Source: Salipiger sp. CCB-MM3
GTDB taxonomy: Bacteria; Pseudomonadota; Alphaproteobacteria; Rhodobacterales; Rhodobacteraceae
Reading direction: 5' to 3'
DNA: 64,000 nt
Assembly: GCF_001687105.1 (NCBI RefSeq)
Contig: NZ_CP014598.1
Location: 124,001 to 188,000, forward strand
Positions 446-19,616 of the stretch are shown here, in pieces (the first letter of the stretch is position 1; every line of letters starts with the position of its first letter). A program made the translations under genes and the position numbers. The notes under the pieces are model-generated. The model was not told where the DNA came from. It did no database searches and saw only the letters and a list, made by a program, of their open reading frames with translations.

Positions 446-1516
446 TCACTTTGCCTCGGGCATCCCAATGCGGTCGATCTTGCTCACCAACGCGGTCGCC
501 GTGGCCAGTGCGGAAGCGGTGGCCTGCGCCATCTGCGGCAGGATCATCCACTCCAGCGCCCAAGCCGCGCCCGAGCGTTCCTGTTCGTGGATCATCGCCT
601 GATGCATCCCCGACAGCTGCACCGCGTTGAACCGCGCCAGCGTCACCAGCAGTTCGGCGCTCACCGGGTTCTGCTTGTGCGGCATCGCGGAAGAGCCGCC
701 GCCGCCCGAGAGTTTGATCTCGTCCAGCCCCTGCTGCGCCATCAGGCAGATGTCCTGCCCGATCTTGCCCAAGCTTCCGGTGATCAGCGACAGAAGCCCG
801 GCATATTCCGCAACGCCGCCGCGCATCGCGTGCCACGCGCTGTCCGCGCTGGCCAGATCGAGCGCTGCGGCGACGTGATCCACCACCGCCTGCGCGTCGG
901 TGCCAAGCGCCTTGCGGTCGCCCGAGGCACCGCCGATCTGCACCCGCTCGACCCGCGGCGCCAGCTGCGCCAGCCGGTCCAGATGCGCCGCAAGCGGCTG
1001 ATGCCAGGGGCGCAGCCGATCCGAGACGGTGATCTCGGTCGCCGCCTGCATCCGCGTGCGCCCCATCAGCGGCGTCGTGCCGCGGCGCGCGTCAAGCTCG
1101 ATCAGCGCCGCTTCCAGCGTGGCCAACCGCTCTGCCAGCAGCGCGCTGCTCTCCTTGAGGGTCAGCGCCAGCGCGCTGTCCACCACATCCTGCGAGGTCG
1201 CCCCCTTGTGCACCGCCACCGCCAGATCGCAGCCGACGATCTCCTTCAGCTGCGCCACCAGCCGCGGCACCGGCACGCCGTCGCGCGCCATGCCCGCGCG
1301 GATGTCAGACAGATCGATCTTCGCCGCCGCGATCTTTGCCGCCGCCGCCTCGGCCAGCGCCGCATCGGCCCGCCCGCAGGCGCCAAGCGCCCGGCTCCAC
1401 GCCGCCTCGAAGGCCAGCATATGCGCCATCTGCCGGTCCGCAGACCAGATCGCCGCCATCTCGGGGTCGGCAAAGAGCCCGCCCAGCCAAGGGTGATCGA
1501 AAACGCTCGCGCTCAT
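446..1516 (-). CDS. pcaB: 3-carboxy-cis,cis-muconate cycloisomerase
   Basis: This enzyme cyclises beta-carboxymuconate to gamma-carboxymuconolactone, the second step of the protocatechuate branch. The 356-residue protein belongs to the fumarase/adenylosuccinate lyase superfamily. It shows HKGATSQD (about 103-110), GRTRMQAA (152-159) and the superfamily signature SSAMPHKQNP (275-284). The ATG at 1516-1514 is chosen because residues before it (as far as 1615) look like readthrough of the gap after pcaG. The length fits the short alphaproteobacterial form; pseudomonad PcaB is near 450 residues. It is last in the leftward pcaDCHGB order. A GC-rich inverted repeat separates it from pcaG, so it may be transcribed at a lower level. 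Confidence 0.93.
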   Translation of the reverse strand: MSASVFDHPWLGGLFADPEMAAIWSADRQMAHMLAFEAAWSRALGACGRADAALAEAAAAKIAAAKIDLSDIRAGMARDGVPVPRLVAQLKEIVGCDLAVAVHKGATSQDVVDSALALTLKESSALLAERLATLEAALIELDARRGTTPLMGRTRMQAATEITVSDRLRPWHQPLAAHLDRLAQLAPRVERVQIGGASGDRKALGTDAQAVVDHVAAALDLASADSAWHAMRGGVAEYAGLLSLITGSLGKIGQDICLMAQQGLDEIKLSGGGGSSAMPHKQNPVSAELLVTLARFNAVQLSGMHQAMIHEQERSGAAWALEWMILPQMAQATASALATATALVSKIDRIGMPEAK

Positions 1517-1541
1517 AGGTCCTGTCCCTTCACATGCCGAA

Positions 1542-1564
1542 GGGGCGGCCCGCACAGCCGCCCC
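1542..1564 (-). other. Inverted repeat between pcaG and pcaB
   Basis: GGGGCGGC at 1542-1549 and GCCGCCCC at 1557-1564 form a perfect 8-bp stem with a 7-nt loop, between the pcaG stop and the pcaB start. No T-run follows in either direction. An mRNA processing or stability element, or partial attenuation, is more likely than a full terminator. Confidence 0.4.
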
Positions 1565-1589
1565 GTCGCATCGTTCTAATCTCCGCGCC

Positions 1590-2189
1590 TCAGATGTCGA
1601 GGAAGACCGTCTCACCCTCGCCCTGCAGGCGGATGTCGAAACGGTATTTACCCTCGCCGGTCTTCTTGGCGATCAGCGTCTCGACGCGCGGGCGCTGCTC
1701 GATGCGCGCCAAGAGCGGGTCCGAGGCATTGTCTTCGTCTTCGAAGTAGATGCGCGTCTGAAGGCCCATATTGATGCCGCGCGCCACGACCCAGAGCGAG
1801 ATATGCGGCGCGCTCTCCACGCCGCCCCGGCCCTTCACCTTGCCCGGTTTGACCGTGCGCAGGGTGAACTCGCCGGTCTCGGCGTCGGCGGCAAAGCGGC
1901 AATGACCCGAAACCTTGGGGTCCGCACCCTCTTGCCCGGCAAAGACGCCCTTGGCGTCGGGCTGCCAGCTTTCGATCAGCGCGTCGCGCATCGCCCAGCC
2001 GGTGCCGTCATAGACAGAGCCGGTGATCTCGATGATCTCGCCGTCGCAGCCCTCTTCGATGGGGCTGACGCCGATCTCTTCGTCGTAGTAGCCCGCGTTG
2101 CCCGCATAGGTGGGCATCAGACCGATGTGGACGTAGGGGCCAGCGGTCTGCGAGGCGGTTTCCACGAGGGTGTCGAGTTTCTGCACCAT
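1590..2189 (-). CDS. pcaG: Protocatechuate 3,4-dioxygenase, alpha subunit
   Basis: Alpha subunit (199 residues) of the intradiol dioxygenase that opens protocatechuate between C3 and C4. It carries the family start ETASQTAGPYVHIGL and the intradiol core with ALIESWQPDAKG and a C-terminal VETLIAKK. The alpha chain lacks the iron ligands and forms part of the active-site wall and the heteromer. The ATG at 2189 gives the usual N-terminus. A GTG at 2195 overlaps the pcaH stop (GTGA) and is the alternative start. Tight coupling to pcaH suggests matched translation of the two subunits. Confidence 0.95.
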   Translation of the reverse strand: MVQKLDTLVETASQTAGPYVHIGLMPTYAGNAGYYDEEIGVSPIEEGCDGEIIEITGSVYDGTGWAMRDALIESWQPDAKGVFAGQEGADPKVSGHCRFAADAETGEFTLRTVKPGKVKGRGGVESAPHISLWVVARGINMGLQTRIYFEDEDNASDPLLARIEQRPRVETLIAKKTGEGKYRFDIRLQGEGETVFLDI

Positions 2190-2191
2190 GA

Positions 2192-2935
2192 TCACATGCC
2201 CTCCAGCTTGTTCTCGAACATCGACTGACGGCGACCGCGCAGCACGATGTCGAACTTATAGGCGAGGTAGTCGAGCGGGCGCGAATGCGCCAGATCGAGC
2301 GGGGCGACCAGCGCATCAAGCTGGGCGCGGTTCTTGATCGTCGCGGCGATCGGGCAGTGGTCGATCAGCGGATCGCCCTCGAAATACATCTGGGTGATCA
2401 GGCGCTGGCCGAAGCTGTGACCGAAGACCGAGATATGGATGTGCATCGGGCGCCAGTCGTTGCCGCGGTTCGGCCAAGGGTAGGCGCCGGGACGCACGGT
2501 GAGGAACTGGTAATAGCCGTTCTCATCGGTGAGCGTGCGCCCGCAGCCGCCGAAGTTCGGGTCGAGCGGCGCAAGATAGGTGTCCTTCTTGTGGCGGTAG
2601 CGCCCGCCCGCGTTGGCCTGCCAGATCTCGATCAGCGTGTTCGGCACCGGCTTGGCGTTTTCGTCGAGCACCCGGCCATGCATCAGGATGCGCTCGCCGA
2701 CCGCCGGCGCCGCGCCCTTGGTCCAGTTCAGCACGAGGTTGTTGTCGAGCGCGCCCAGCTTGCCGTGGCCGAAGGTCGGGCCGGTCTCTTCCGAGGGCGA
2801 GCTTTCCATCGACAGCAGCGGCAGGTTCGGGGACCGGGTGACGCTGGTCTTATAGCCGGGATCATAGGCCACGGGATGCGCGTCGCGGTTGCGCGGGATC
2901 AGCGGGCCCTTATCTGTGGTGATGAAGTTGCTCAT
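2192..2935 (-). CDS. pcaH: Protocatechuate 3,4-dioxygenase, beta subunit
   Basis: Catalytic, iron-bearing subunit (247 residues). The four non-haem Fe(III) ligands expected for intradiol dioxygenases are visible: Tyr113 (GGRYRHK), Tyr152 (GAYPW), and His165 and His167 (PMHIHIS). The family signature LIEIWQANAGG is at about 101-111. The start codon overlaps the pcaC stop (ATGA), and the pcaG start overlaps or closely follows its stop, so the three are translationally coupled. The substrate is protocatechuate from aromatic breakdown, for example of lignin-derived compounds. Confidence 0.97.
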   Translation of the reverse strand: MSNFITTDKGPLIPRNRDAHPVAYDPGYKTSVTRSPNLPLLSMESSPSEETGPTFGHGKLGALDNNLVLNWTKGAAPAVGERILMHGRVLDENAKPVPNTLIEIWQANAGGRYRHKKDTYLAPLDPNFGGCGRTLTDENGYYQFLTVRPGAYPWPNRGNDWRPMHIHISVFGHSFGQRLITQMYFEGDPLIDHCPIAATIKNRAQLDALVAPLDLAHSRPLDYLAYKFDIVLRGRRQSMFENKLEGM

Positions 2936-3315
2936 TCGGCTGCCGCCTCCATTTCGGCATAGGTCGCCTTGGCCAGTTTCAGCGCGTGGTTGGCGCGCGG
3001 AACCCCGGCGTAGATCGCCACGTGCTGGAAAGCCTCCAGCACGTCCTGCTTACTGGCCCCGGTGCGCGCGGTGGCGCGGATGTGCATCGGGATCTCTTCG
3101 AAGTTGCCGGTCGCCGCCAGCAGCGCCAGCGTCAGCATCGAGCGCTCGCGATGGCTGATCGCGTCAGAACTCCAGACCGTGCCCCATGCGCTGCGGGTGA
3201 TCAGCGTCTGGAACGCCTCGTCGAGCGGCGTCTTGGCGGCCTCGGCGCGGTCCACATGCGCGTCGCCCAGCACCGCGCGGCGGGTCTTCATGCCCTGTTC
3301 GTAAAGCTCGTCCAT
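2932..3315 (-). CDS. pcaC: 4-carboxymuconolactone decarboxylase
   Basis: This 127-residue protein of the CMD/AhpD-like fold decarboxylates gamma-carboxymuconolactone to 3-oxoadipate enol-lactone. Family features are the RSAWGTVWS segment, SHRERSMLTLALLAATG and EIPMHIRATARTG, followed by AFQHVAIYAGVPRAN. It is the stand-alone form, not the PcaL fusion with PcaD found in some actinobacteria. It starts directly after the pcaD stop and overlaps pcaH by 4 bp. Confidence 0.95.
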   Translation of the reverse strand: MDELYEQGMKTRRAVLGDAHVDRAEAAKTPLDEAFQTLITRSAWGTVWSSDAISHRERSMLTLALLAATGNFEEIPMHIRATARTGASKQDVLEAFQHVAIYAGVPRANHALKLAKATYAEMEAAAE

Positions 3316-4098
3316 TCAGGCGGTCCTCCTCAGAAAGTCAGTGATCAGGCGGGCGGTCTCTTCGGGCTGTTCGACGCAGGGGATGTGCCCCGCCCCGTCG
3401 ATCAACGCGAACTCCGCGCCGCAAAGCTCGGCCGTGCCGCGCACCAACTCGGGCGGCGTCGAGCCATCCTCGGCCCCCGCCATCGCCAGCACCGGCAGGC
3501 TCAGCGCGCGGGTGCTCTCGGTCAGATCGGCGCCCGCGATGGCGGCGCAGCAGCCCACGTAGCCCTCGAGCGGGGTGCGCTCGAGCATGTTCTTCCACAG
3601 CGCGAACTGCGGGTCGCTCTCGCGGAAGCCCGGCGTGAACCAGCGCTCAAGAATGGCGTCCGCCAGCGAGGCCACACCGTTTGCGCGAATGCCGTCGATC
3701 CGGGTCTGCCACATCTCGGGCGTGCCGATCTTGGCCGCCGTATCCATCAGCACCAGCGCGCGGATGAGATCCGGGCGCTTGACCGCCAGCCCCTGCCCGA
3801 TGAGCCCGCCGATCGACAGGCCGACAAAGGTGATATCCTTCAGATCGAGCGCCGTGCAGACCGCCTCGGCGTCCGCCACCAGCGTCTCCATCGCATAGGG
3901 CGCTTCGGGCGCATCCGACAGACCATGCCCACGCTTGTCGAAACGCACCACGCGCAGCCCCTCGGGCAGCAGCGGCAGCAGCGCGTCCCAGACCCGCAGG
4001 TCGGTGCCCAGAGAGTTGGCCAGCATCAGCACGCGGCCATCTTTCGGGCCTTCGTCGCGGATGTGCAGGGTCACCCCTGCGGCGTCGATTGTCTGCAT
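3316..4098 (-). CDS. pcaD: 3-oxoadipate enol-lactonase
   Basis: This 260-residue alpha/beta hydrolase converts 3-oxoadipate enol-lactone to 3-oxoadipate. The nucleophile is Ser95 in GLSIGG, the acid Asp211 in GAEDGSTP and the base His238 in GAGHIP. The ATG at 4098-4096 is preceded by GAGGAGG about 5 nt away. A longer frame up to 4179 runs through the promoter and is rejected. It is first in the pcaDCHGB operon and divergent from pcaQ over about 100 bp holding a PcaQ-type site. The later genes pcaI, pcaJ and pcaF are not in the window. Confidence 0.95.
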   Translation of the reverse strand: MQTIDAAGVTLHIRDEGPKDGRVLMLANSLGTDLRVWDALLPLLPEGLRVVRFDKRGHGLSDAPEAPYAMETLVADAEAVCTALDLKDITFVGLSIGGLIGQGLAVKRPDLIRALVLMDTAAKIGTPEMWQTRIDGIRANGVASLADAILERWFTPGFRESDPQFALWKNMLERTPLEGYVGCCAAIAGADLTESTRALSLPVLAMAGAEDGSTPPELVRGTAELCGAEFALIDGAGHIPCVEQPEETARLITDFLRRTA

Positions 4099-4181
4099 GT
4101 GTCCTCCTCGGGCCGGGTCGGGCCTGGCGCTCTTCTGCCATGGCAAACCGCCCGTGAAAAATATAAGTAGAGGCATCACTC

Positions 4182-4199: not shown

Positions 4200-5123
4200 A
4201 TGCTCCACCCTCACCTGCGCATGCGTCACCTTAGGGTGTTTCTCGAGACCGCCCGCCTCGGCAGCCTCAGCGCCGCCGCCGAGGCGCTGCACGTCAGCCA
4301 GCCCGCCGCCTCGAAGACAGTGCGCGAGCTTGAAGAGATCCTGAACGCCCAGCTGTTCGACCGCAGCGGGCGGCGGCTGGCGCTGAGCCGGGCGGGCAAA
4401 ATCTTTCAACAATACGCGGGCACGGCGCTGGCCGATCTCGAACGCGGCGAGCGCCTGCTGCGCGAACTGCCGCAAAACCAGCACAAGCTTGCCGTGGGCG
4501 TGCTGCCCACCGCCGCCACCGGGCTTTTCCCCGACGCCGCCGCGCGCTTTCGCGACAACTACCCTGACTGCACGCTGCGCGTCTCAACCGGGCCGAACTG
4601 GCTGCTGCTGTCGCAATTGCGCGAGGGCGCGCTTGATCTGGTGGTCGGGCGCATGCCCGCCACTGGCACTGGCGAGGGGCTCAGCTTCCGCCAGCTCTAC
4701 TGGGAGCGCGTGGTGCCGGTGATCCGCCCCGGCCATCCGCTTGCCGGGCAGGCTTGGGAGCCGTCGGACCTGATCCGCTTTCCGCTCATGCTGCCGCCCG
4801 CGGGCGCGGTGATTTCGGGCTCGGTGCGGGCGTTCCTGCAATCTCTGGGGCTGGGCGAGCCGGTTCCCGCATATGAGAATGTCTCCCACGCCTTCGGGCG
4901 GCGGGTCGTGGCGCGGTCCGACACCATCTGGTTCATCTCCGCGGGCGTGGTGCGCGCCGAGCTCGACAGCGGCGAGCTGACCGTGCTTCCGGTGCAGAAC
5001 GAACTGCTGGGCGGCCCGGTCGGCATCTCGCTGCGCGACGGAACGCTGCCGGACCCGGCGCTGCAGGGTCTGGTCGACGCGCTCGTCGCCGTGGCCGCAG
5101 AGCATCCGGCGCAGGCGGTGTGA
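4200..5123 (+). CDS. pcaQ: LysR-family regulator of protocatechuate genes
   Basis: LysR-type regulator of 307 residues. The N-terminal winged helix is clear (HLRVFLETARLGSLSAAAEALHVSQPAASK, about 9-38), followed by an effector-binding domain with a conserved GVLPTAATGLFP start. In rhizobia PcaQ activates pcaDCHGB in response to beta-carboxymuconate or gamma-carboxymuconolactone, and the divergent placement here matches. The first codon overlaps the downstream edge of the putative operator. It converges with the hydroxyacid dehydrogenase at 5139. Confidence 0.92.
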   Translation: MLHPHLRMRHLRVFLETARLGSLSAAAEALHVSQPAASKTVRELEEILNAQLFDRSGRRLALSRAGKIFQQYAGTALADLERGERLLRELPQNQHKLAVGVLPTAATGLFPDAAARFRDNYPDCTLRVSTGPNWLLLSQLREGALDLVVGRMPATGTGEGLSFRQLYWERVVPVIRPGHPLAGQAWEPSDLIRFPLMLPPAGAVISGSVRAFLQSLGLGEPVPAYENVSHAFGRRVVARSDTIWFISAGVVRAELDSGELTVLPVQNELLGGPVGISLRDGTLPDPALQGLVDALVAVAAEHPAQAV

Positions 5124-6223: not shown

Positions 6224-7108
6224 CTATCGCCGGTAGCGGCCCGGATAGGGCTCCATCGGCGGTAAATTCAGCGCCGCCTCCCATTCGCCGAGGGTCATAT
6301 CGGCCAGATCGCCCGCGCTGCGCCCCGGCGGGATCGCGGCGGGTGGCAGCGCCACATAGGGCACGCAGGCCAGCGCGCAGCCGACCATGTCCGGGGTGAT
6401 CCGCAGCGTCTTGGTGCCGATGAAGATCTCGCGGTATTTGACGCCCTGATCGGCGCCGCAGCGCAGGATCGACTTGGCAATATTCGCCTCGATGTCCTGC
6501 AGCGGCGCCTCGCCGGTGCTTTCCGTGTCCGACGCATCCTCGATGAAGAGGTTCGCCGTGGTCATCCGGTCCTCGGCGATGGCCAGCGCCAGCGCGCACC
6601 AGATCGTCGTTTCAGCCTTGGGGCGAATGGTCTGGGATTTATTCGCGCAGACCACCATGGCCCCCGGCAACGGCGCGAACCGCCGCTCGTGGCGCGAGCC
6701 GAACAGCCGGTAGGCGGCGTCGAGCAGCGGCTCCATCGGCAGCACCGGCACCTCGGCGCCATCATGGCGCGGCAGCACCATCTTCGGCGCCACACGGCCC
6801 TGCGCCAGATCATCGGCACGGGCAAGGTCATAGCCCCAGACCGCGCCGTTCACGCCGCAAAAGCTCGAGACGGTGATCATGTTGATCTGCCCGATATAGG
6901 CGTCCTCGCATTCCGCCCGGTCGTAAGAAACGATGCCCTCCAGCCCCTCGTCCATATCCGCCGCGACCGTGCCGATCGACAGCTTCAGCGCCGCCACATA
7001 GCCCCAGCCGCTTGATGGGGGATTGCCGTAACCGGCGCAATTGCCCGGAAAAGGGCCGATGGCGTTCTCGGCCACCTCGCGGAAATGCTCACTCATCAGA
7101 TCACTCAC
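6224..7108 (-). CDS. hdcA: Pyruvoyl-dependent histidine decarboxylase proenzyme homologue
   Basis: The 294-residue protein matches, along its length, the Lactobacillus-type histidine decarboxylase proenzyme as I recall it. Key segments are GIVSYDRAE, AYIGQINMITVSSFCGVNG, the VVCANKS loop, LFIEDA and GCALACVPYVALP. In the lactobacillus enzyme the chain cleaves itself between Ser81 and Ser82, and Ser82 becomes the pyruvoyl cofactor; here Ser81-Ser82 fall at the same numbers. The catalytic acid Glu197 corresponds to Glu190 here. The product would be histamine plus CO2, without PLP. The start is GTG at 7108, or ATG at 7096, which has AGGTGAG upstream. The gene begins 7 bp after the transglutaminase-like gene ends. 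This family is best known from Gram-positive bacteria. Another amino acid substrate is possible. Confidence 0.85.
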   Translation of the reverse strand: MSDLMSEHFREVAENAIGPFPGNCAGYGNPPSSGWGYVAALKLSIGTVAADMDEGLEGIVSYDRAECEDAYIGQINMITVSSFCGVNGAVWGYDLARADDLAQGRVAPKMVLPRHDGAEVPVLPMEPLLDAAYRLFGSRHERRFAPLPGAMVVCANKSQTIRPKAETTIWCALALAIAEDRMTTANLFIEDASDTESTGEAPLQDIEANIAKSILRCGADQGVKYREIFIGTKTLRITPDMVGCALACVPYVALPPAAIPPGRSAGDLADMTLGEWEAALNLPPMEPYPGRYRR

Positions 7109-7115
7109 CTATGAA

Positions 7116-8399
7116 TTACTCCCGGTCCAGCCGCAGATGCGCGCGCACCCATGCGCCGGGGTCTCTGGCGCTGCCGCCCGGATCCACAGGCGTGACGATC
7201 AGCATGGCGCCGCCCAGCATCACCCGGTGCGGCGTGTTGTCGATCCCCGCGCTGCGCACCTGCTGCAGATCACCGGGCGCAAAGCCAAGCTCCGCGCAAA
7301 GCTCGGCCAGCGTGGTGCCGGGATGGGCAAAGACGCCGCCCGTCTGCGGCGCAAAGCCAGCGGCCAAAAGCGCGCTGGAGGTGGGGGTGGCGGTGCCGCC
7401 CTTGGGCGTCGTGGGCTCAGCCATGGCAGCCTCGATATCGGCCGGGATCTGCAGCAACCGCCGCTGGGTGAAACGCACCTCGGTGGCGGGATCGTCGATC
7501 ACATGCGGCGCGCAGTCGTGGTAATAGGCGTTGACCAGCGAGGCGCGCAGATTGGTCTCGCTCAGCCAGCTCGCGCCCATGCCCGAGTAATGCCGCGTGC
7601 CAAGCGCATCCATCCCCATGTACATGGCGTTGAGCCCGGTCCAGAACCCTTCGGGCGCCCAATGCAGGTAGTCGTCCTTGTTCTTGAAATAGAGGTAATC
7701 GCCGGGCACCGGCGGCGCGTCGAGCGGCGCCGAGATCATAAAGAGCGTCGCCGGATTGGGCGTTTCCGCCTCACCGATGCGCCACGGCCCGATATACATG
7801 CGCTGCCATTTGGCGGCCATCTCATCAAAGCGCGCCGCACCCAAACCATTCAGCAGCCCCAGATAGACCGCCATCTGAAAGCCCCCGGCACACTCCCCGC
7901 GGAACGGCAGCAGCGCCCCCGTCACCGGCGCCATCGCCTGCGCCGCTGGCGTATCCGGCGCCTGCGCAAACTGCGCCTCGCTTGCCCCGTCGGGACCGAA
8001 AAACTGCCAGAAGCGCGACAAGAGCGCCGGTCCGGCGCTGCCGAGCCGCGGCACCAAATGGATGTCGGGATTGAAGTAATCCACGTCATAGGCGCCGGTG
8101 TTGAAGCGGCTCATCGCCGCGATCGCGGCAAGGCGAAAGCGGATCTCGTCAAGCGCATCCGCAAGGCTGGCAAACGCGTGTCCCCGCGGGGACAGCTGCC
8201 ACGCCTCGACGATCTGCCGCGCCAAGGGCAGCTCGAGCGCGCGGAGCGCCTGCGCGTCGCTGCCGCCGAAAGCCGCCTCGGACTGGCGCGCTGCGGGCAC
8301 CGTCAGATGTTTGACCACCTCGTGCAGGGCGGCCTCGGAATCATCCACCGGCTGGCCGGCGATGGTCAGGCCGTTGAAGGGTGTTTGCGGTATCGTCAC
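7116..8399 (-). CDS. Bacillus Tgl-type transglutaminase homologue with C-terminal extension
   Basis: A GTG at 8399-8397 with AAGGAG 7 nt upstream gives 427 residues. A longer frame to 8549 has no ribosome-binding site and crosses the presumed promoter. Residues about 78-275 align by eye with Bacillus subtilis Tgl, the spore protein-glutamine gamma-glutamyltransferase: SLADALDEIRFRLAAIAA, FRGECAGGFQMAVYLGLL and PGDYLYFKN. Catalytic Cys116 corresponds to Cys170, and its preceding Glu is kept (Glu169). The Glu of WRGEN in Tgl is Leu256 here (WTGLN), and the His is shifted (His270), so the triad is altered. About 150 extra residues follow, ending in a LysM-like stretch. There is no signal peptide. 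It is first in the leftward set with the histidine decarboxylase, whose product type is a known transglutaminase amine donor. Confidence 0.65.
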   Translation of the reverse strand: MTIPQTPFNGLTIAGQPVDDSEAALHEVVKHLTVPAARQSEAAFGGSDAQALRALELPLARQIVEAWQLSPRGHAFASLADALDEIRFRLAAIAAMSRFNTGAYDVDYFNPDIHLVPRLGSAGPALLSRFWQFFGPDGASEAQFAQAPDTPAAQAMAPVTGALLPFRGECAGGFQMAVYLGLLNGLGAARFDEMAAKWQRMYIGPWRIGEAETPNPATLFMISAPLDAPPVPGDYLYFKNKDDYLHWAPEGFWTGLNAMYMGMDALGTRHYSGMGASWLSETNLRASLVNAYYHDCAPHVIDDPATEVRFTQRRLLQIPADIEAAMAEPTTPKGGTATPTSSALLAAGFAPQTGGVFAHPGTTLAELCAELGFAPGDLQQVRSAGIDNTPHRVMLGGAMLIVTPVDPGGSARDPGAWVRAHLRLDRE

Positions 8400-8709
8400 G
8401 CGGCTCTCCTTGCCCCAATTCGTAAGCCAGCCCGACATGCGCAAGTGCCCGCGCTTTGCCCGGATCATCACATCCCGCGCGGAAACTGTTGCAATCATTT
8501 CGGGAAACGCTTGCAATTTCTCTATGTAACGTTGAACGTCCTTCCCCATGGTAAAGACGCATTTTTAGTATCGACTTAATACCCTAGGGTTCTACGGGCT
8601 GCGCAAAACTACCGCAAAAAGTGTATCGCCACCCAGAACCGCAGCAAGGCTAGGCACGACACCAGCTTGCGCCGGGCACCGCCCGCTGGGGACCGGGGGA
8701 GTGACGTAA
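8400..8709. promoter_or_regulatory. Divergent promoter region of the decarboxylase set and SARP regulator
   Basis: This 310-bp gap has no convincing gene. It is less GC-rich than its flanks near 8480-8600. Two direct copies of TTGCAAT (8489-8495 and 8511-8517) start 22 bp apart. A perfect palindrome ACCCTAGGGT lies at 8581-8590. SARP-family regulators bind direct heptamers spaced by whole helical turns, so these are the natural candidate sites for the regulator encoded at 8710. Confidence 0.5.
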
Positions 8710-11700
8710 GTGACGCAGGCCGTGTTGAGGTTGCTTGGGGGCTACGAGTTGCAGCTCGCAGACGGCACGCCTCTGCGGCTCACCTCGCGCAAATCCTTTG
8801 CCCTGCTCGCCATCCTCGCCCAGAGAGCCGACCGCGCCGTGCCGCGTGAAGAGATCGCCACCCTGCTTTGGGGCGACCGGGGCGAAGAACAGGCCCGCGC
8901 CAGCCTTCGGCAAGAGCTTTCGGTGCTGCGCCGCGCCCTGTCGCGCTATGGACTCGAATGCATCGAGGCCAGCAAGGAAGCGGTGCTGCTCGACTCGCGG
9001 CGCATCGAGATCGACACCCAAACCGCCGAGGCGCTGATCGCCAAGGCCACGCCCGCAGCCGCCGCCGAGCTTGCAGAGGTCTATCAGGGCGACTTTCTCT
9101 CCGGGCTCGACATCCGGTCGGAAGCCTTCGAGGACTGGCGCCGCCTCTACCGCGAACAGCTGCGCGACCGGGTGCTCGACACGCTGCATGAGGCGCTGCT
9201 CGACGATCCCGCCGAGCCCGACATCGCCCGCGCCCTGCTGCGCATCGACGAGACCCACGAAGAGGCGCACCGCGCGCTCATGCGGCACTTCTGGCAGACC
9301 GGGCGGCGCGGCGAGGCGCTGCAGCAGTACCAGCGCTGCCTCGACGCGCTGCGCCGCGAGCTCGACGCCGAGCCCGACCCCGACACGATCGATCTCTTCG
9401 AGGAGATCCGCGACACCACCGCCCCACCCGTCACCGGGCGCAGCACCGGCCCGCTGCGCCCCGGCGGCAGCGCCGTCCCCGAGCGGCGGCAACTGACCGT
9501 CGCGGTGCTGGGCTTTGCCCTGCCCGAAGACCTCGACCGCGACCCCGAGAGCCTGTCGGCGCTTCTGGCCGATTTCGCCGCGCATTGCCGCGATCACATC
9601 GGCGCCTATGGCGGCAAGATCATCGATCAGGCCGACGGCCGGATGATCGCGCTGTTTGGCCACCCTCGCGCGCATGAGGCGGATGCCGAGCGCGCGGTGA
9701 TGGCCGCCCTTGGCCTGCTGGAACAGCCCTTTCGCGATGCGCGCCGGCAGGCGCTGGCGCTGCGCGCCGGGCTTGCCATGGGCGAGACGCTGGTCGGTCA
9801 ACAAGGCACCGAGGGCGCGGTGGTCTCGGTCGCCGGGCCTGCGGTGATGACCGCCTCGCGCATCGAACTGCAGGCCGGTCCGGGGGAGACCCGCATCGCC
9901 GGGGCGATGCAGCACGCGCTGCGCGGGCAGTTCCGCCTGTCCCCGGTGGGCGATGCGGTCAGCGGCTCTCAGGTGCAACGAGTGCTGGGCGAAAGCCACC
10001 ATGCAGACCGTTTCTTCATCTCGGGCGCCACCCGGCAGTTGTCTCGGCTCACCGGGCGCGAGGAGGAATTGCACGAGATGCTGCGCCGCTGGCGCGCCGC
10101 GACCGAAGGCGAGACGCAGGTTATCGTGCTGCGCGGCGAGTCCGGCATCGGCAAATCCCGCCTGCTGTCGGACTTCAAGAAACGCGCGCTGACCGACGCG
10201 CCGCGCCTGCTGCAATTCTCCGGCTCGCCGCACCACCAGAAAAGCGTGCTCTTTCCGCTGGTTCAGCACCTGCAAGAGATGCTGGGCTTCGCCGATCTGC
10301 CCGACGACAGCAGCCGCCGCGCCCGCCTTCGGCACTGGCTCGAAAGGCGCCCCGGCCTTGATCTTGGGCAGGTCGAGCAGGTGCTTTCGACGCTTTTGGG
10401 CCTCTCTTCGGTGCCCGACGAGCGGCTGCGCGATCAGGACGCGCTGCTTTCGGCGATCACCGCGCTGCTGCGGCTGGCCGCCACCGAAGGCCGCCCGCTG
10501 CTGCTCATCGTGGAAGACATGCACTGGCTCGATCCCACCTCGCAGCTGCTGCTCGTCCGGCTTGCGCGCGAGCTAGAGGATCTGCCGCTGATGATGCTGG
10601 GCACCTCGCGTCAGGCCGAGGGCGTCGCCGTGCCAAAGCCGCCACGGATGCACAGCATCACGCTCGCCCGGCTCACCCCGCGCGAGGCGACCGCGCTGGT
10701 CCGTGACATCTGCCCCGAGACATGGCCCGAAAGCCGCATCGCCGAGATCGTCGCCCGTTCCGACGGTATCCCGCTTTATCTCGAGGAACTGGTCCACACC
10801 GCCGCCACCGGCGCCGACGGCAGCATCCCCGACAGCCTGCAGGCCTCGCTCACCGCACGGATCGACCGGCTCGACGGCGCGCGGCTGCTGTTGCAGCAGG
10901 CGGCGGTGATCGGACGGGTCTTTGACCGCGAGACGCTGGCCGCCCTCGCCGGACGCCGGGCCGAGGATCTCGACCCCACGCTGCGCGAGTTGCAAAAGCT
11001 TGATCTGGTCTACCGGCTCGGGCGCGCCGCCGACGTGCGCTATGAGTTCAAACACGCGCTGGTGCAGGAGCAGGCGCATCAGACCATTCTTCTGGCCGAG
11101 CGCGCGGCGCTGCACAGCCGCCTTGGCGATATCCTCGCCGCCGCCCCAGTGCCCGTCCCCGCCGAGCGCATCGCCCGGCATTTCGAACAGGGCGGCCGCC
11201 CGCGCGACGCCATCCCGCTGCTGGAAACCGCCGGCAAACAGGCGCTGCGCGTCGCCGCCCATACCGAGGCCGACGCCCATTTCGCGCGCGCCGCAGAGCT
11301 TGCCAGCAGCCTGCCCGCCTCCGAAGACGCCACCGCGCTGGAGCTGAAGCACCTGCTGCTGCGCGGCCCGCAACTGCTGGCCCTGCACGGCTTCGGTGCC
11401 CCCGCGATCGAGGCCAATTACGCCCGCGCCCTGAAGCTCGCCGACAGCACGCGCGAACGCGGTGAACTGGCGCATGTCTACTGGGGTCTATGGAGCTACT
11501 ACGTCGTGCGCGCCGACATCGCCACGGCGACCCGCATCGCCGAAAGCTACCTGACGCTCTGCCGCGAGCTTGGCGATACGGTGGGCGAGGTGGCGGCGAA
11601 TTATGCGCTGGGGGTCACGCAATATTACGCGGGCGACCTGCCCGAGGCGCTCGCCGCCTTCCGCGAGGCCGTCGCGCAGCACCGGCCCGGCCTGCATGAG

Positions 11701-12459
11701 GCGCAGATCGAGCGCTATGGGCTCGACCTTTCGGTCTGCGCCCGCAGTTATGAGTGCTGGCTGCACGCGCTCTGCGCCGCGCCCGAGGCCGCGCGGCAGG
11801 CCAGCGCCGGGGCGATCGCCGCCGCCGAAGCCCATGCGCATGATTTCTCGATGGCCTTCGCCCATGTCTTCACCGGGGTGATGCATCACTTCCTGCAGGC
11901 TCCGGGCCCCGCACTGCATCACGGCCAGATCGCCGAGCGACTCGCCGACCGGCACGGCTATGCGCAATGGCGCGCACAGGCCGAGATGGTGATCGGCTAC
12001 GCCCGCGACCAGCAGGGCGATCCCACCGGCGCGGCGCTGCTGACCAAGGGCACCGAGGCCTATCTGGCCACCGGCGCCCGCCTCGCCCTGCCCTACGCCC
12101 GCGCGTGGCAGGCCGAGATCGCGCTGCGCGGCGGCGACCGCGAGACGGCACAAAGCCTTCTGCAGCAGGCGCGCGAGATCACCGCTGCCAATGGCGAGCT
12201 TTATTTCGAGGCCGAGCTTTTGCGGCTGTCGGCGCGCTGCGGCGGCTATCCAGAACGTCTGCTCACCGGCGCGCTGACGGCCGCCCGCGACTCGGGCGCA
12301 GGGCTTTTGGAACTGCGCGCCGCCCGCGACATGGCCGCGCGTGGATTTGGCGATGCCGCTTTGCGCCGGGCGCTGCACGAACTTCCGGAACAAACAGCCG
12401 CGGGCGAGATCGCCGAAGCACAGCAGATACTGGCGACGCAGGACGCCGCCGAGCCCTAG
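8710..12459 (+). CDS. Large SARP/BTAD regulator with cyclase-like, NTPase and TPR-like parts
   Basis: A GTG start, with GGGGGAG about 8 nt upstream, gives 1249 residues. The N-terminus is an OmpR-like winged helix (LLGGYELQLADGTPLRLTSRKSFALLAILA) followed by a bacterial transcriptional activation domain (to about 240). Residues about 258-420 resemble a class III adenylate/guanylate cyclase domain, but the first metal-site region reads AVLGFALPEDL rather than the usual F-x-D, so catalysis is doubtful. An AAA/STAND-type ATPase follows, with Walker A GESGIGKS (near 477) and Walker B LLLIVEDMHWLD (near 600). From about 800 the chain is helical and TPR-like. Such proteins act as ligand-gated, ATP-dependent activators. 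Its position suggests that it controls the divergent decarboxylase/transglutaminase set. It converges with the MarR gene. Confidence 0.88.
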   Translation: MTQAVLRLLGGYELQLADGTPLRLTSRKSFALLAILAQRADRAVPREEIATLLWGDRGEEQARASLRQELSVLRRALSRYGLECIEASKEAVLLDSRRIEIDTQTAEALIAKATPAAAAELAEVYQGDFLSGLDIRSEAFEDWRRLYREQLRDRVLDTLHEALLDDPAEPDIARALLRIDETHEEAHRALMRHFWQTGRRGEALQQYQRCLDALRRELDAEPDPDTIDLFEEIRDTTAPPVTGRSTGPLRPGGSAVPERRQLTVAVLGFALPEDLDRDPESLSALLADFAAHCRDHIGAYGGKIIDQADGRMIALFGHPRAHEADAERAVMAALGLLEQPFRDARRQALALRAGLAMGETLVGQQGTEGAVVSVAGPAVMTASRIELQAGPGETRIAGAMQHALRGQFRLSPVGDAVSGSQVQRVLGESHHADRFFISGATRQLSRLTGREEELHEMLRRWRAATEGETQVIVLRGESGIGKSRLLSDFKKRALTDAPRLLQFSGSPHHQKSVLFPLVQHLQEMLGFADLPDDSSRRARLRHWLERRPGLDLGQVEQVLSTLLGLSSVPDERLRDQDALLSAITALLRLAATEGRPLLLIVEDMHWLDPTSQLLLVRLARELEDLPLMMLGTSRQAEGVAVPKPPRMHSITLARLTPREATALVRDICPETWPESRIAEIVARSDGIPLYLEELVHTAATGADGSIPDSLQASLTARIDRLDGARLLLQQAAVIGRVFDRETLAALAGRRAEDLDPTLRELQKLDLVYRLGRAADVRYEFKHALVQEQAHQTILLAERAALHSRLGDILAAAPVPVPAERIARHFEQGGRPRDAIPLLETAGKQALRVAAHTEADAHFARAAELASSLPASEDATALELKHLLLRGPQLLALHGFGAPAIEANYARALKLADSTRERGELAHVYWGLWSYYVVRADIATATRIAESYLTLCRELGDTVGEVAANYALGVTQYYAGDLPEALAAFREAVAQHRPGLHEAQIERYGLDLSVCARSYECWLHALCAAPEAARQASAGAIAAAEAHAHDFSMAFAHVFTGVMHHFLQAPGPALHHGQIAERLADRHGYAQWRAQAEMVIGYARDQQGDPTGAALLTKGTEAYLATGARLALPYARAWQAEIALRGGDRETAQSLLQQAREITAANGELYFEAELLRLSARCGGYPERLLTGALTAARDSGAGLLELRAARDMAARGFGDAALRRALHELPEQTAAGEIAEAQQILATQDAAEP

Positions 12460-12483
12460 CCTACGGCCCCGCTAAGTCTGCGC

Positions 12484-12984
12484 TTAGTGGCCTTCCTGAC
12501 GGATGTCGCGGATGGTCAGCACCGGCGAGGCGTCGATCTCATGCGCGTCCAGCATCGCCGCGACCCGCTCGAGCGACGCGACCAGCTGCGCCTGCTCCCA
12601 GTCCTGCAGCCCCTCGAAGCTTTTGACAAAGCGCTGCTGCAGCGCATCGGGCGACTGGCTCACCGCCTCGCGGCCCTTGTCCGAGATCACCACATCGGTC
12701 TGCCGCCGGTCCTTCACCGAGCGCTCGCGCCCAACCATGGCGCGTGCGACCAGCTTGTCGACCAGCGCCGTCACCGTCGCCTGACTGACGCCCATCTGGG
12801 TCGCCAGCGCCTTAGGCGTGGCCGCGCCATGGTCCTTCTTGGCAAGGATCTGCAGCACCCGCAGCTGCGCTGGGGTCAGGCCAGCGGCCTGCGCGAGCTT
12901 GCGCTCGTACAGTTCGGTCGCGCGCAGGATTCGGCGCAGGGCGATCAGGCTCTGATCGGTTCGGTCGGGAACGGGGTCGGACAT
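12484..12984 (-). CDS. ectR: MarR-family regulator, probable ectoine operon repressor
   Basis: MarR-type winged-helix protein of 166 residues. It has the helix-turn-helix MGVSQATVTALVDKLVARAMV and the wing RERSVKDRRQTDVVIS, followed by a long C-terminal helix. EctR (CosR) proteins of this family lie next to ectABC in many halotolerant bacteria and repress it at low salinity. Here it is divergent from ectA over about 215 bp, the usual place. The assignment to ectoine control rests on context. Confidence 0.85.
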   Translation of the reverse strand: MSDPVPDRTDQSLIALRRILRATELYERKLAQAAGLTPAQLRVLQILAKKDHGAATPKALATQMGVSQATVTALVDKLVARAMVGRERSVKDRRQTDVVISDKGREAVSQSPDALQQRFVKSFEGLQDWEQAQLVASLERVAAMLDAHEIDASPVLTIRDIRQEGH

Positions 12985-13199
12985 GGCAATCTTTTGGCAG
13001 CTTTCTGCCGAAGCTTCAATCTACGAAGCACTTGCCAGGGTCATTCGAAAGACTAAGGGGATTTGCTTCATAAAAACTTAGTACTTCAGAGGCTAAATGG
13101 CCTCAAAAGCCGCTATAAGCGTAAAAACTGCTTCGGTGGTTGAAACTTTATCGCTGTTCGATTAGTTAGATTGACGAACGAACCAGAGGACCCTGATCA
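12985..13199. promoter_or_regulatory. ectR-ectA divergent promoter with candidate operator
   Basis: This gap is clearly richer in A and T than its surroundings, as expected for a regulated promoter region. Near ectA, GTTCG (13156-13160) and CGAAC (13175-13179) form an inverted repeat around ATTAGTTAGATTGA. It lies 20 bp upstream of the ectA ATG, where a bound MarR repressor would block transcription. No exact EctR consensus was matched. Confidence 0.4.
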
Positions 13200-13736
13200 A
13201 TGCCGAAAGACATGACACAGCCTGAAACGCGCACTCCCGTGCTGCGTAAGCCCGAAGCAACGGACGGGGCTGCGATCTGGGATCTCGTGCGCGCGTGCAA
13301 GCCGCTGGACGAGAATTCGATGTACTGCAATCTCGTTCAGGCAGAGCACTTCCGCGATACCTGCGTGCTGGCCGAACTCGACGGCGAGCCGGTGGGTTGG
13401 ATTTCGGGTCACATGATCCCGAACCAAGACGCCTTCTTCGTCTGGCAGGTCGCCGTGAGCCCCAAGGCCCGCGGTCTCGGCCTTGGCCGCAAGATGCTGA
13501 CGCATCTGATCGAGCGTGAGGAATGCGCGGACGCAACTGAACTGAAGACGACGATCACCCGCGACAATGATGCGTCGTGGGGGCTGTTCCGCAGCTTCGC
13601 CCGCTCTATCGGCGGCGAGCTTTCGGACGAGCCGCACTACACGCGCGACGAGCACTTCGACGGCATGCACGCGACCGAACACATGGTCACGATCGAACTG
13701 CCGGAAGAGGAAGAGGCGCTGCGCGCCGCGGCCTGA
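13200..13736 (+). CDS. ectA: L-2,4-diaminobutyrate N-gamma-acetyltransferase
   Basis: GNAT-fold acetyltransferase of 178 residues that makes N-gamma-acetyl-2,4-diaminobutyrate from diaminobutyrate and acetyl-CoA, the second step of ectoine synthesis. The acetyl-CoA binding stretch is VAVSPKARGLGLGRKML (about 84-100). AWDLV-like, ENSMYCNLVQAEHFRDTC and VGWISGHMIP are typical EctA segments. AGAGGA lies about 8 nt before the ATG. It is the first gene of ectABC-ask; an ectD hydroxylase gene is not present in the window. Confidence 0.96.
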   Translation: MPKDMTQPETRTPVLRKPEATDGAAIWDLVRACKPLDENSMYCNLVQAEHFRDTCVLAELDGEPVGWISGHMIPNQDAFFVWQVAVSPKARGLGLGRKMLTHLIEREECADATELKTTITRDNDASWGLFRSFARSIGGELSDEPHYTRDEHFDGMHATEHMVTIELPEEEEALRAAA

Positions 13737-13797
13737 TCGCACCCCCTTACATCGCTACATCCTTATCTTTTCAAAGTTCCTAGAAAGGACTTCTGAT

Positions 13798-15087
13798 ATG
13801 CCGAAAGACACGTCTAACGGCCCGACTATTTACGCTCGCCGCGAATCCGAGGCACGTTCCTACTGCCGCTCCTTCCCGGTGAGCTTCACCTCTGCCAAGG
13901 GCTCGGAACTGACCGACGCCAACGGCAAGACCTACATCGACTTTCTGGCTGGCTGTTCCTCGCTGAACTACGGCCACAATGACGCCGACATGAAGGCGGC
14001 TCTGGTCGAGCACATCATGAGCGATGGCATTGCCCATGGCCTTGATATGCACACCGAGACCAAGGAAGCCTTCCTTGAGACCTTCGAGCGCCTGATCCTC
14101 GAGCCGCGTGGCATGGACCACAAGGTGATGATGGTCGGCCCGACCGGCACCAACGCCGTCGAGGCGGCGATGAAGCTCGCCCGCAAGGTCACCGGCCGCA
14201 CCAACATCGTGGCCTTCACCAACGGCTTCCACGGCATGACCGTGGGCGCGCTGGCGGCGACCGGCAACAAGGGCAAGCGCAACGGTGGCGGCATGCCGCT
14301 GCAGGGCGTGACCCATCTGCCCTATGAGGGCGCCTTCGGCCCCGATGTCGATACGCTGAAGCAGATCGAGATGATGCTCGAGAACCCCTCGTCGGGTCTC
14401 GACGCCCCCGCCGCCTTCCTCGTGGAGCCGGTGCAGGGTGAGGGTGGCCTCAACGCCGCCTCCGCCGAATGGCTGCGCGGCATCGCCCGCCTTGCCAAAA
14501 AGCACGGCGCGCTGCTCATCGCAGACGACATTCAGGCGGGCATCGGCCGCACCGGCACATTCTTCTCCTTCGAGGAGATGGGCATCGAGCCGGACCTCAT
14601 TCCGATGGCGAAATCGCTCTCGGGCTTCGGTCTGCCCTTTGCCGCGCTGCTGATGAAGCCGGAGCTGGACGTCTGGAAACCGGCCGAGCACAACGGCACG
14701 TTCCGGGGCAACACCCATGCCTTCGTGACCGCCCGCGTGGCGCTCGAGAAGTTCTGGGCCGATGGCAAGTTCCAAGCGGAACTGGCGACCAAGGCCAAGC
14801 TGATCGAAGACGAGCTGAACACCATCGCCGACATGATCCCCGGCGCGTACCTCAAGGGTCGCGGTCTGATGCGGGGCGTCGACGTCGGCTCGGGCGACCT
14901 GGCCGGTGACATCTGCGCCGAAGCCTTCAAGCGCGGTCTCATCATCGAGACCTCGGGCGCCGACGACGAAGTCGTCAAAGTGCTCGCGCCGCTGACCACC
15001 TCGGAAGAGACCTTCCGCAAGGGCTTCGAGATCCTACGCGACAGCACCGCCGCCTGCCTGAACAACCACAAGATTGCCGCGGAGTAA
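13798..15087 (+). CDS. ectB: L-2,4-diaminobutyrate transaminase
   Basis: Class III PLP aminotransferase of 429 residues that converts aspartate-semialdehyde to 2,4-diaminobutyrate with glutamate as amino donor. The PLP-binding Lys is near residue 272 in PMAKSLSGFGLP, and the LIADDIQAGIGRTG segment supplies the cofactor Asp. The ATG at 13798 follows AAAGGAC and gives the standard N-terminus; in-frame sequence further upstream overlaps ectA and is rejected. About 60 bp separates it from ectA. Confidence 0.96.
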   Translation: MPKDTSNGPTIYARRESEARSYCRSFPVSFTSAKGSELTDANGKTYIDFLAGCSSLNYGHNDADMKAALVEHIMSDGIAHGLDMHTETKEAFLETFERLILEPRGMDHKVMMVGPTGTNAVEAAMKLARKVTGRTNIVAFTNGFHGMTVGALAATGNKGKRNGGGMPLQGVTHLPYEGAFGPDVDTLKQIEMMLENPSSGLDAPAAFLVEPVQGEGGLNAASAEWLRGIARLAKKHGALLIADDIQAGIGRTGTFFSFEEMGIEPDLIPMAKSLSGFGLPFAALLMKPELDVWKPAEHNGTFRGNTHAFVTARVALEKFWADGKFQAELATKAKLIEDELNTIADMIPGAYLKGRGLMRGVDVGSGDLAGDICAEAFKRGLIIETSGADDEVVKVLAPLTTSEETFRKGFEILRDSTAACLNNHKIAAE

Positions 15088-15091
15088 CACC

Positions 15092-15484
15092 ATGATTGTA
15101 CGCGATTTCAACGAACTGAAGAAAACCGACAAGCACATTGCCGACGCGCGCTGGACCTCCACGCGCATGCTGCTGGCAGATGACGGCATGGGCTTTTCGT
15201 TCCACATCACCGTGCTCGAAGCAGGCTCGGAACACACGTTCCACTACAAGCACCACTTCGAAAGCGTCTACTGCATGAAGGGCAAGGGCTCGATCACCGA
15301 TATCGCCACCGGCGAGACCCATGAGATCAAGCCCGGCGTCATGTACGCTCTGAACCTGCACGACAAGCACATCCTGCGTGCGACCGAAGAGCTGCACATG
15401 GCCTGCTGCTTCAACCCGCCCGTCACCGGCACCGAGGTGCACCGCGAAGACGGGTCCTACGCACCGGCTGAGGAGACGGCGTAA
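15092..15484 (+). CDS. ectC: L-ectoine synthase
   Basis: Cupin-fold protein of 130 residues that closes N-gamma-acetyldiaminobutyrate to ectoine, a compatible solute. Cupin motifs are EAGSEHTFHYKHHFESVYCMKG and GVMYALNLHDKHILRA. The N-terminus MIVRDFNELKKTDKHI is typical. GGAG overlaps the ectB stop and serves the ATG at 15092, so translation is coupled. An in-frame ATG at 15074 inside ectB is rejected. Confidence 0.96.
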   Translation: MIVRDFNELKKTDKHIADARWTSTRMLLADDGMGFSFHITVLEAGSEHTFHYKHHFESVYCMKGKGSITDIATGETHEIKPGVMYALNLHDKHILRATEELHMACCFNPPVTGTEVHREDGSYAPAEETA

Positions 15485-15487
15485 GCC

Positions 15488-16912
15488 ATGACCCATACCG
15501 TTGAGAAAATCGGCGGGACGAGCATGTCCCGCCTGAACGAACTGCGCGACACGCTGCTGATCGGCGGCCGCGAGGGCGAAGATCTCTACGGTCGCATCTT
15601 CGTGGTCTCCGCCTTCGGCGGCATCACCGACCTGCTGCTCGAACACAAGAAGTCGGGGCAACCCGGCGTCTACGGGCAGTTCGCCAACGCCCATTCCGGC
15701 CACGGCTGGCACGACGCGCTGACCGAAGTGTCGAAGGCGATGATCGAGGCCCATGAAGCGGTTCTCGATCACCCCGGCGACGTCGAACAGGCGACCGATT
15801 TTGTGCGCAACCGTATCGAAGGCGCGCGCAATTGCCTGATCGACCTGCAGCGGCTGTGCTCCTACGGGCACTTCCAGCTGTCCGAGCATATGTTGCAGAT
15901 CCGCGAGCTGCTGTCGGGCCTCGGCGAGGCGCATTCAGCCTATGTCACCGTGCTGATGCTCCAGCGCGCCGGTGTGAACGCCCGCAACGTCGATCTTTCG
16001 GGATGGCGCGATGATGGCCACTACACCCTCGAAGAGCGCATCACCAAGGCGCTCGAAGGGGTCGATCCGGCCAGCGAAATGCCCATCGTCACCGGCTATG
16101 CCCAGTGCACCGAAGGGCTGATGCGCGAGTTCGACCGTGGCTATTCCGAGGTGACCTTCTCGAAGCTGGCGGCACTGACGTCGGCGCGCGAGGCGATCAT
16201 CCACAAGGAATTCCACCTCAGCTCGGCTGACCCCAAGCTGGTGGGCGCGGAAAATGTCCGCAAGCTGGGCCGCACCAACTACGACGTGGCCGACCAGCTG
16301 TCGAACATGGGCATGGAGGCGATCCACCCCAAGGCGGCGAAAACTCTGCGTCAGGCGCAGGTGCCGCTGCGCGTCACCAACGCGTTCGAGCCGGGCGATC
16401 CGGGCACGCTGATCGACGACCAGCCGGCCGAAGAAGCCGCGGTCGAGATCGTCACCGGCCTCGATATCGTTGCGCTGGAGGTGTTCGAACAGGACATGGT
16501 TGGCGTGAAAGGCTATGACGCCGCGATCCTCGACGTGCTGACCCGTCACGATGTGCGCATCGTGTCGAAAGTGTCGAACGCCAATACGATCACCCACTAT
16601 CTGGACAGCTCGCTGAAGACGATGCGCCGGGTGGAAAAGGATCTGGCGGAGCTCTATCCGCAGGCAAAGATCAGCTCGCGCACGCTTGCGATGGCCTCGG
16701 TCATCGGTCGCGACCTGAAGGGCCTGTCGGTGTTGACCCGCGGCCTGCAGGCGATCGCCGAAGCCGGCTACGAGTCGATCGGCGCCACGCAGGGCCCGCG
16801 CAACGTCGACGTGCAGTACATCCTTGAACGCGACGACCTCGACCCGGTCATCGCCGCGCTGCACGGCGCCTTCGTGACACCGCAGGCGAAGAAGCTGAAA
16901 TCGGCCGCCTGA
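15488..16912 (+). CDS. ask: Ectoine-associated aspartokinase
   Basis: Aspartate kinase of 474 residues that phosphorylates L-aspartate, the entry step to aspartate-semialdehyde. It starts with EKIGGTSMSR, the kinase Lys/Gly motif of the family, and ends in ACT-like regulatory repeats (for example GVKGYDAAILDVLTRHDVRIVSKVSNANTIT). The ask_ect form fused to ectoine operons is a distinct clade, thought to escape the feedback inhibition of housekeeping enzymes. The gene starts 3 bp after ectC and is followed by a strong terminator. Confidence 0.93.
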   Translation: MTHTVEKIGGTSMSRLNELRDTLLIGGREGEDLYGRIFVVSAFGGITDLLLEHKKSGQPGVYGQFANAHSGHGWHDALTEVSKAMIEAHEAVLDHPGDVEQATDFVRNRIEGARNCLIDLQRLCSYGHFQLSEHMLQIRELLSGLGEAHSAYVTVLMLQRAGVNARNVDLSGWRDDGHYTLEERITKALEGVDPASEMPIVTGYAQCTEGLMREFDRGYSEVTFSKLAALTSAREAIIHKEFHLSSADPKLVGAENVRKLGRTNYDVADQLSNMGMEAIHPKAAKTLRQAQVPLRVTNAFEPGDPGTLIDDQPAEEAAVEIVTGLDIVALEVFEQDMVGVKGYDAAILDVLTRHDVRIVSKVSNANTITHYLDSSLKTMRRVEKDLAELYPQAKISSRTLAMASVIGRDLKGLSVLTRGLQAIAEAGYESIGATQGPRNVDVQYILERDDLDPVIAALHGAFVTPQAKKLKSAA

Positions 16913-16949
16913 GCCTGCGCGGTCCGACAGGGACCATTCGACCAACTGA

Positions 16950-16975
16950 GGGCGGCCTTCGGGCTGCCCTTTTTT
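16950..16975 (+). terminator. Rho-independent terminator of the ectoine operon
   Basis: An 8-bp GC stem (16950-16957 with 16962-16969, one G-U pair) closes on a TTCG tetraloop within C-TTCG-G, and six T follow. It lies 37 bp after the ask stop codon. Confidence 0.9.
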
Positions 16976-17043
16976 ACCCCAAGCCCCGACGTCCTCGACC
17001 GTGGCCCCGACCGCGCGCCAGACCGCAAACCAGACCGCGCCCC

Positions 17044-17088
17044 AAGTCTCTTACGAAGAGACTTGCAAAAGTCTTCCAAGACTTTTGC
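17044..17088 (+). repeat. Two adjoining perfect hairpins upstream of nspC
   Basis: AAGTCTCTT-ACG-AAGAGACTT (17044-17064) is followed without a gap by GCAAAAGTCTT-CC-AAGACTTTTGC (17065-17088). Both stems are perfect, and the arms share AAGTCTT. They lie about 125 bp before the nspC start and after the ectoine terminator. Possible roles are a leader attenuator, an operator for a dimeric regulator, or a second terminator. Alternative pairing between the two hairpins is possible because the arms are related. Confidence 0.65.
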
Positions 17089-17214
17089 CGCCGCGCTCCC
17101 ATGCCGTCATCCCCCTGCCATATGCCGCAGGGCATTGTTCTCGCCAGATTTGCACTATAGTGGGACGGGTTCTTGCCGTTTCTTCCCCGTGTTTCGCTGT
17201 CCGGAGGTGACCAG

Positions 17215-18306: not shown

Positions 18307-18347
18307 GCGCCGCGCGGATCAAACGGACAAAATGGAGGTCCTTTGAG

Positions 18348-19583: not shown

Positions 19584-19616
19584 GCGTCTGACCAAACAGT
19601 AAAATCCCAAAATTCG

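Follow-up and report, generated by a model that had tools for sequence, protein, structure and literature searches.

A histidine decarboxylase, a Tgl-fold enzyme and a PimR-type regulator associated across bacterial genomes: a possible histaminylation unit

Why should a gene for a histidine decarboxylase stand beside a gene for a transglutaminase-like enzyme, and do the two products act together? The question is raised by a stretch of 64,000 nt from Salipiger sp. CCB-MM3 (GCF_001687105.1, NZ_CP014598.1, positions 124,001–188,000, forward strand; the whole stretch is here called the window), where genes for a histidine decarboxylase of the pyruvoyl type (HDC) and an enzyme with the Tgl fold (TGL) lie divergent from that of a SARP/STAND regulator of the PimR type. 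The HDC proenzyme is found at 6224..7108 on the minus strand (294 aa if it starts at GTG 7108 and 290 aa, the form of the protein P0001, if at ATG 7096) and TGL at 7116..8399 on the same strand (427 aa from a GTG start; the longest open reading frame (ORF) reaches 8549, which gives an alternative start). The regulator of 1249 aa, recognised by Pfam and by alignments, lies at 8710..12459 on the plus strand. A first-pass annotation had described a histidine decarboxylase, a Tgl-like protein and a 1249-residue SARP/STAND regulator here, the first two 7 bp apart and the third divergent from them, and Pfam matches, coordinates and strands agree with it on every count (the gap is 7109–7115). The answer that we favour, tentatively, is that the genes form a switched unit that would make histamine and transfer it to glutamine side chains.

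The association of the three genes is more than chance. Genomes scanned for a TGL profile yielded 20 loci (L001–L020); the window and L033 (the second genome found in a family survey) bring the number to 22. In 20 of them (L001–L018, the window and L033) TGL has a relative of the regulator next to it, and in the two without a visible regulator (L019 and L020) TGL lies at the end of the contig. HDC follows TGL in ten loci (the window, L033, L001–L007 and L009), and the relative strands of the three genes agree in all ten; these include two pairs of near-copies (L001/L002 and L006/L007), and in L003 the regulator is split in two ORFs. Outside these sister pairs, L004 and L033 have a flanking LamG gene in common and by eye appear to share genes further downstream as well, and L005 and L009 share one short ORF; no other common flanks were found. 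Among the matches listed, 11 contigs, matched by size alone, are common to the HDC and TGL protein lists, which fits linkage. The first-pass annotation had let its proposal depend on such conservation, and the objection from a lack of it fails because the three-gene association is conserved. Locus L006 (JANQQD010000043.1) is filed as a metagenome-assembled genome (MAG) of Anaerolineae and its HDC shares 98% identity with the one in L007, a MAG of an alphaproteobacterium; L006 is probably misbinned. Other readings were tried and rejected. Under a viral origin, 15 stretches of viral contigs matched a peptide pattern and none encodes a TGL relative; under a spread of TGL by plasmids, no match was found in a plasmid collection; and under a defence system, PADLOC matched neither HDC nor TGL and gave the regulator only a weak match, to a cyclase domain (PycC, E 2.5e-4).

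HDC and TGL also occur together where they are not neighbours. In the window's family each was found in 2/394 genomes, the same two, and HDC was found in 1/195 relatives. In the class, 3/385 genomes carry HDC, namely the window's, G616 (with TGL and the same coordinates as the L007 genome) and G755. Among the 21 genomes of L001–L020 and the window HDC is present in 14, which are all 14 of the window and L001–L013; in five of these (L008 and L010–L013) it lies away from TGL. The genus of G206, which contains Roseibium (45 genomes), has HDC in 11 genomes, one copy being a fragment with stops, and TGL in nine; all nine TGL genomes carry HDC, unlinked in seven, and the five of these that were sampled have a distant HDC lineage. 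Hypergeometric values for the co-occurrence (1.3e-5, and 6e-8 or 1e-8) are overstated because related genomes are not independent.

The regulator carries the Pfam domains Trans_reg_C, BTAD, Guanylate_cyc and AAA_16, laid out as a winged helix (21–80), BTAD (94–234), a guanylate-cyclase-like part (279–415) and a STAND-type AAA_16 with Walker A and B (446–629), followed by a long C-terminal part; the genome holds one full-length copy and no second. In PimR a single chain combines a SARP, a guanylate-cyclase-like and an AAA part, and SARP operators consist of directly repeated heptamers, with spacers of 4 bp, in the intergenic region between divergent genes (PMC3367932). From its sequence the regulator would be better named PimR-type than SARP/STAND, because the domain order matches and an operator of the SARP type stands before TGL. 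The likeness to the PimR/SanG/PolR/PteR class of Streptomyces (PMC3367932) lies in the order of domains in one chain and in the spacing and place of the repeats; the regulator of the window differs in being alphaproteobacterial, in a candidate target that is TGL-HDC, and in a TTTTGCG-like heptamer where the class has CGGCAAG. The idea of an active nucleotide cyclase was rejected, since the pattern of metal-binding Asp residues is missing in the aligned sequences and the domain is taken as degenerate. The regulators of L008 and L010–L013 (1008–1024 aa), like the Roseibium relatives, lack the SARP part, and because these SARP-less proteins stand upstream of TGL on its own strand, the STAND part may act otherwise than by DNA binding.

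The candidate operator of the window, TTTTGCG-gtag-TTTTGCG (8602..8619, minus strand), is a heptamer direct repeat of 11-bp period directed towards TGL-HDC, and 7 bp past the second heptamer a putative -10 element, TAGAAC (8589..8594, minus strand), can be read. Repeats like TTTTGCG-N4-TTTTGCG lie between the regulator and TGL, and with the motif built from the other loci the held-out region beats all but 0–5 of 1000 shuffles in 9/10 units, the exception being L009 (72/1000 as high); this leave-one-out test is only partly independent because the seeds of the motif were picked by eye in the same regions. A motif-free comparison, which covered 12 loci and left out L008, L010–L014 and the sisters L002 and L007, found a heptamer repeat matching at no fewer than 6/7 positions at period 11 in nine; each of 16 other periods gave 0–3 loci, and none of 500 shuffled sets reached nine (mean 1.7, highest 7); the best repeat is not the TTTTGCG motif everywhere (e.g., L009, L033, L006). 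A degenerate form of the pattern has a single exact match in the 5.5-Mb genome of the window, at window 8602–8619, and over seven genomes it has 14 matches, of which five are TGL promoters, vs. six for the reversed control; G199 and G201 have none because their variants do not fit the pattern. The TTTTGCG motif was not significant in L015–L018 (700, 272, 63, and 19 of 1000 shuffles as high, respectively) or in the Roseibium regions (37–717 of 1000), and another repeat of period 11, resembling TCTGACG, is present in L015 and L016. Candidate second repeats lie 3' of HDC, where 5/7 regions have a period-11 match of at least 6/7; that of L005 is another sequence.

A regulator of this type raises the alternative of a small-molecule pathway, in which TGL would amidate a peptide or metabolite with histamine in the manner of natural-product biosynthesis, the regulator would be the activator of the pathway and the product an exported compound and not a modified protein. 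In Streptomyces, regulators of the PimR type govern clusters for antibiotics and polyenes (PMC3367932); a SARP-like repeat stands before a further unit in L004 and L033, and a downstream stretch of G415 encodes Asn_synthase-like and glycosyltransferase proteins. Yet beyond the three genes no biosynthetic gene is common to the ten loci, none lies next to the unit of the window, and no transporter was recognised inside the unit; we consider this alternative unlikely.

Is HDC a histidine decarboxylase in more than name? It matches Pfam PF02329 (E 9.4e-71, 238.8 bits, cut-off 25), and the two chains of the Lactobacillus 30a enzyme (PDB 1hq6/1pya) align on either side of its Ser81/Ser82 junction, and Glu190 falls on the Glu within the F-V-E-D motif of that enzyme, as solved. 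Ser82, Asp63, Lys157, and Glu190 are present in 34/34 HDC sequences and Ser81 in 33/34, so that Ser81-Ser82 and Glu190 are where the first-pass annotation had expected them; Tyr62 and Glu66 are likewise kept by residue counts over the 34 sequences. Tyr62, Asp63, and Glu66 presumably lie around the substrate and catalytic site, and Glu66 and Glu197 are named in the title of a cited paper. HdcA of Lactobacillus 30a and L. reuteri (PF02329, TIGR00541) shares full-length homology, the Ser-Ser cleavage site and the catalytic residues, whereas the HDC of the window scores under the NCBIfam cut-off and falls in a clade of its own. The view that pyruvoyl histidine decarboxylases are known mainly from Gram-positive bacteria does not hold for the relatives of this protein, as those listed span Planctomycetes, Acidobacteria, a Deltaproteobacterium, and several Rhodobacterales (names taken from the best 120 of 863). 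Plasmids of Rhizobium and Methylocystis carry genes of the family at about 39% identity, and one relative, P0065, is recorded as a protein of the green alga Derbesia sp. WEST4838. In the HDC tree, where long branches were noted, the ten linked HDCs form one clade (100/99) and the five unlinked Roseibium HDCs a separate clade with L. reuteri (100/100). It is possible, if rather doubtful, that a dedicated bacterial histaminylation unit has been passed between marine alphaproteobacteria and that two unrelated HDC lineages were recruited to the same TGL.

Two further alternatives concern what HDC does. It may act on an amino acid other than histidine and give a different amine, which may or may not feed TGL; an identity of about 35–40% to characterised or plasmid-borne HDCs and a score under the equivalog cut-off are consistent with this, and the conservation of Tyr62, Asp63, and Glu66 argues against it, so that we regard it as improbable. 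The first-pass annotation had also offered an acid response. In such a response HDC would consume protons and TGL would be a glutaminase-like deamidase releasing ammonia. Lactobacillus hdc clusters do pair HDC with a histidine/histamine antiporter (L065; PMC5313534), and in L065 the antiporter, HdcB and hisS adjoin HDC; none of them lies beside the HDC of the window. No antiporter was recognised within the unit and HdcB was found in 0/15 genomes by a search that had no positive control, and such a response would not be expected to involve a Tgl fold or a SARP operator. With no support from the genes, the acid response is the most improbable of the alternatives.

TGL matches Pfam PF20085 (E 1.5e-9, 38 bits, cut-off 23.7) and its structure model shows the Tgl fold; against the NCBIfam Tgl equivalog NF002869 (cut-off 307) it scores 21 bits. 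Glu169-Cys170 correspond to Glu115-Cys116 of Bacillus Tgl in 25/25 rows of alignment A1, aligned to the PDB chains, and the protein does resemble Bacillus Tgl in family match, modelled fold and Glu-Cys pair, as had been claimed for it. The spore-coat Tgl of Bacillus subtilis (PF20085; PDB 4p8i, 4pa5; Geobacillus 7c9j) is one of the closest known systems, and TGL differs from it in its length (427 vs. about 245 aa, at 19% identity), in an extra C-terminal part (residues 341–427, about 85, with low-Z structure rows of 4.0 and below and no clear fold match) and in adjoining a SARP/STAND regulator and HDC in a host that is not a spore former. A putative Shine-Dalgarno-like AAGGAG (8406..8411, minus strand) precedes GTG 8399.

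Several observations weigh against a histamine-transferring unit. The position of Glu187 of Tgl is Leu256 in the window, with Leu in 20/25 and Glu in 5/25 rows of A1; in another alignment the window, L008, L010, L012, and L014 have Leu and L015–L020 have Glu. His270 is a positional guess for His200 of Tgl, since the PDB alignments end before it; it is invariant in A1 and not kept at that column in L014, L019, and L020. HDC scores 227.7 bits against TIGR00541 (cut-off 346.65). On sequence grounds TGL is a PF20085 protein and not a Bacillus-type Tgl, from which it is set apart because Glu187 is missing, and HDC a PF02329 protein and not a TIGR00541 equivalog. A Leu at Glu187 does not exclude the function, because Bacillus Tgl E187A keeps about 60% of its activity with Glu115 substituting (PMC6490927). 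HDC was found in none of the seven genomes of L014–L020, several of them MAGs, so that TGL does not always need HDC, and HDC without TGL is found in G526 and G755. The co-occurrence events may be as few as two, perhaps two gains. Coevolution seen in distance matrices was rejected as a main support, for r is 0.78–0.89 with sister pairs and 0.40–0.55 without them, where 168–533 of 5000 permutations were as high. No acceptor or substrate gene is conserved across the ten units. The amine-making and amine-attaching system of the first-pass annotation stands in so far as the association is conserved, unlinked HDC and TGL co-occur and core catalytic residues are kept; the absence of Glu187 tells against it, and the link from HDC to the donor of TGL is one that we infer.

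The loci without HDC also bear on the alternative that TGL cross-links or deamidates proteins alone, with HDC co-regulated for lowering histidine, for a histamine signal or for supplying a capping amine that limits cross-linking. Regulator and TGL occur without HDC in L014–L018, those of L015–L018 being distant TGLs, and the known role of Tgl is Gln-Lys cross-linking, with Bacillus Tgl cross-linking the spore coat (PMC6490927). The presence of HDC in 14/14 genomes (the window and L001–L013) and in 9/9 TGL genomes of the Roseibium-containing genus is unexpected of an incidental partner, and we consider this explanation unlikely.

In the switched histamine-transferring unit that we favour, the STAND part of the regulator would sense a cue and the SARP part would bind the heptamer repeats in the divergent promoter and thereby turn on TGL and HDC. 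HDC would cleave itself between Ser81 and Ser82 to give the pyruvoyl group and convert histidine into histamine in the cytoplasm, and TGL would transfer the histamine to glutamine side chains upon the signal. Protein monoaminylation is known from animals, where the amines come from general metabolism; the bacterial unit would encode the amine maker and the transferase together, unlike mammalian histaminylation. Mammalian transglutaminase 2 attaches histamine to protein glutamine, and the likeness to it is in the proposed chemistry only (PMC3743044), as none of the searches made found homology between it and TGL. No unit of HDC and transglutaminase was found in the literature searched on HDC, transglutaminase, and alphaproteobacteria or Rhodobacteraceae, a search that mostly excluded subscription papers. 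If the reading is true, protein monoaminylation exists in bacteria, with amine maker, transferase and switch in one unit; this would provide a simple genetic system for its study, a role for Tgl-type enzymes outside spore formers and a transferase possibly evolved to use a small aromatic amine.

A possible acceptor, the LamG protein (about 2000–2100 residues with four LamG_3 stretches), lies 3' of HDC at L004 10397–16690 and from L033 10929 to the end; the L033 gene is complete in L062 (1929–8177), and in L004 and L033 a SARP-like period-11 repeat precedes the gene. As a general acceptor it was rejected, being present at full length in 2/31 genomes only, with weak single-domain matches in three more; it is also absent from the genome of the window, a further point against the favoured reading. 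A small peptide precursor was rejected as well, with an 81-aa ORF in L053 and no common small ORF in seven regions, compared by eye. In L053 (10926–11218, G197 C197) an operator-like TTTTACG-tatt-TTTTACG follows the end of HDC and is followed by this putative Cys-containing ORF, and the same 18 bases end the L003 contig. In L062 (10839–15174) the LamG gene is followed by genes for Asn_synthase-like proteins, glycosyltransferase proteins and a CHDLG protein rich in Cys. The last has a counterpart in L061, one neighbour of which gives a weak match to PT-HINT. In L009 proteins of 405 and 817 aa without a Pfam match follow HDC (10303–11520 and 11588–14041), with period-11 repeats before the first. 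Near HDC in Roseibium marinum (L002 13421–13942, L001 10996–11583) a weakly MakCD/PixA-like protein, below cut-off, and a phage-collar-domain protein are encoded.

Elsewhere in the window, EctA and further ORFs are found beyond the regulator (13200–19631), which look like an ectoine cluster and polyamine genes. On the other side a PcaQ-like LysR regulator, just under the NCBIfam cut-off (4200–5123), lies beside further ORFs (446–4179), presumably protocatechuate genes.
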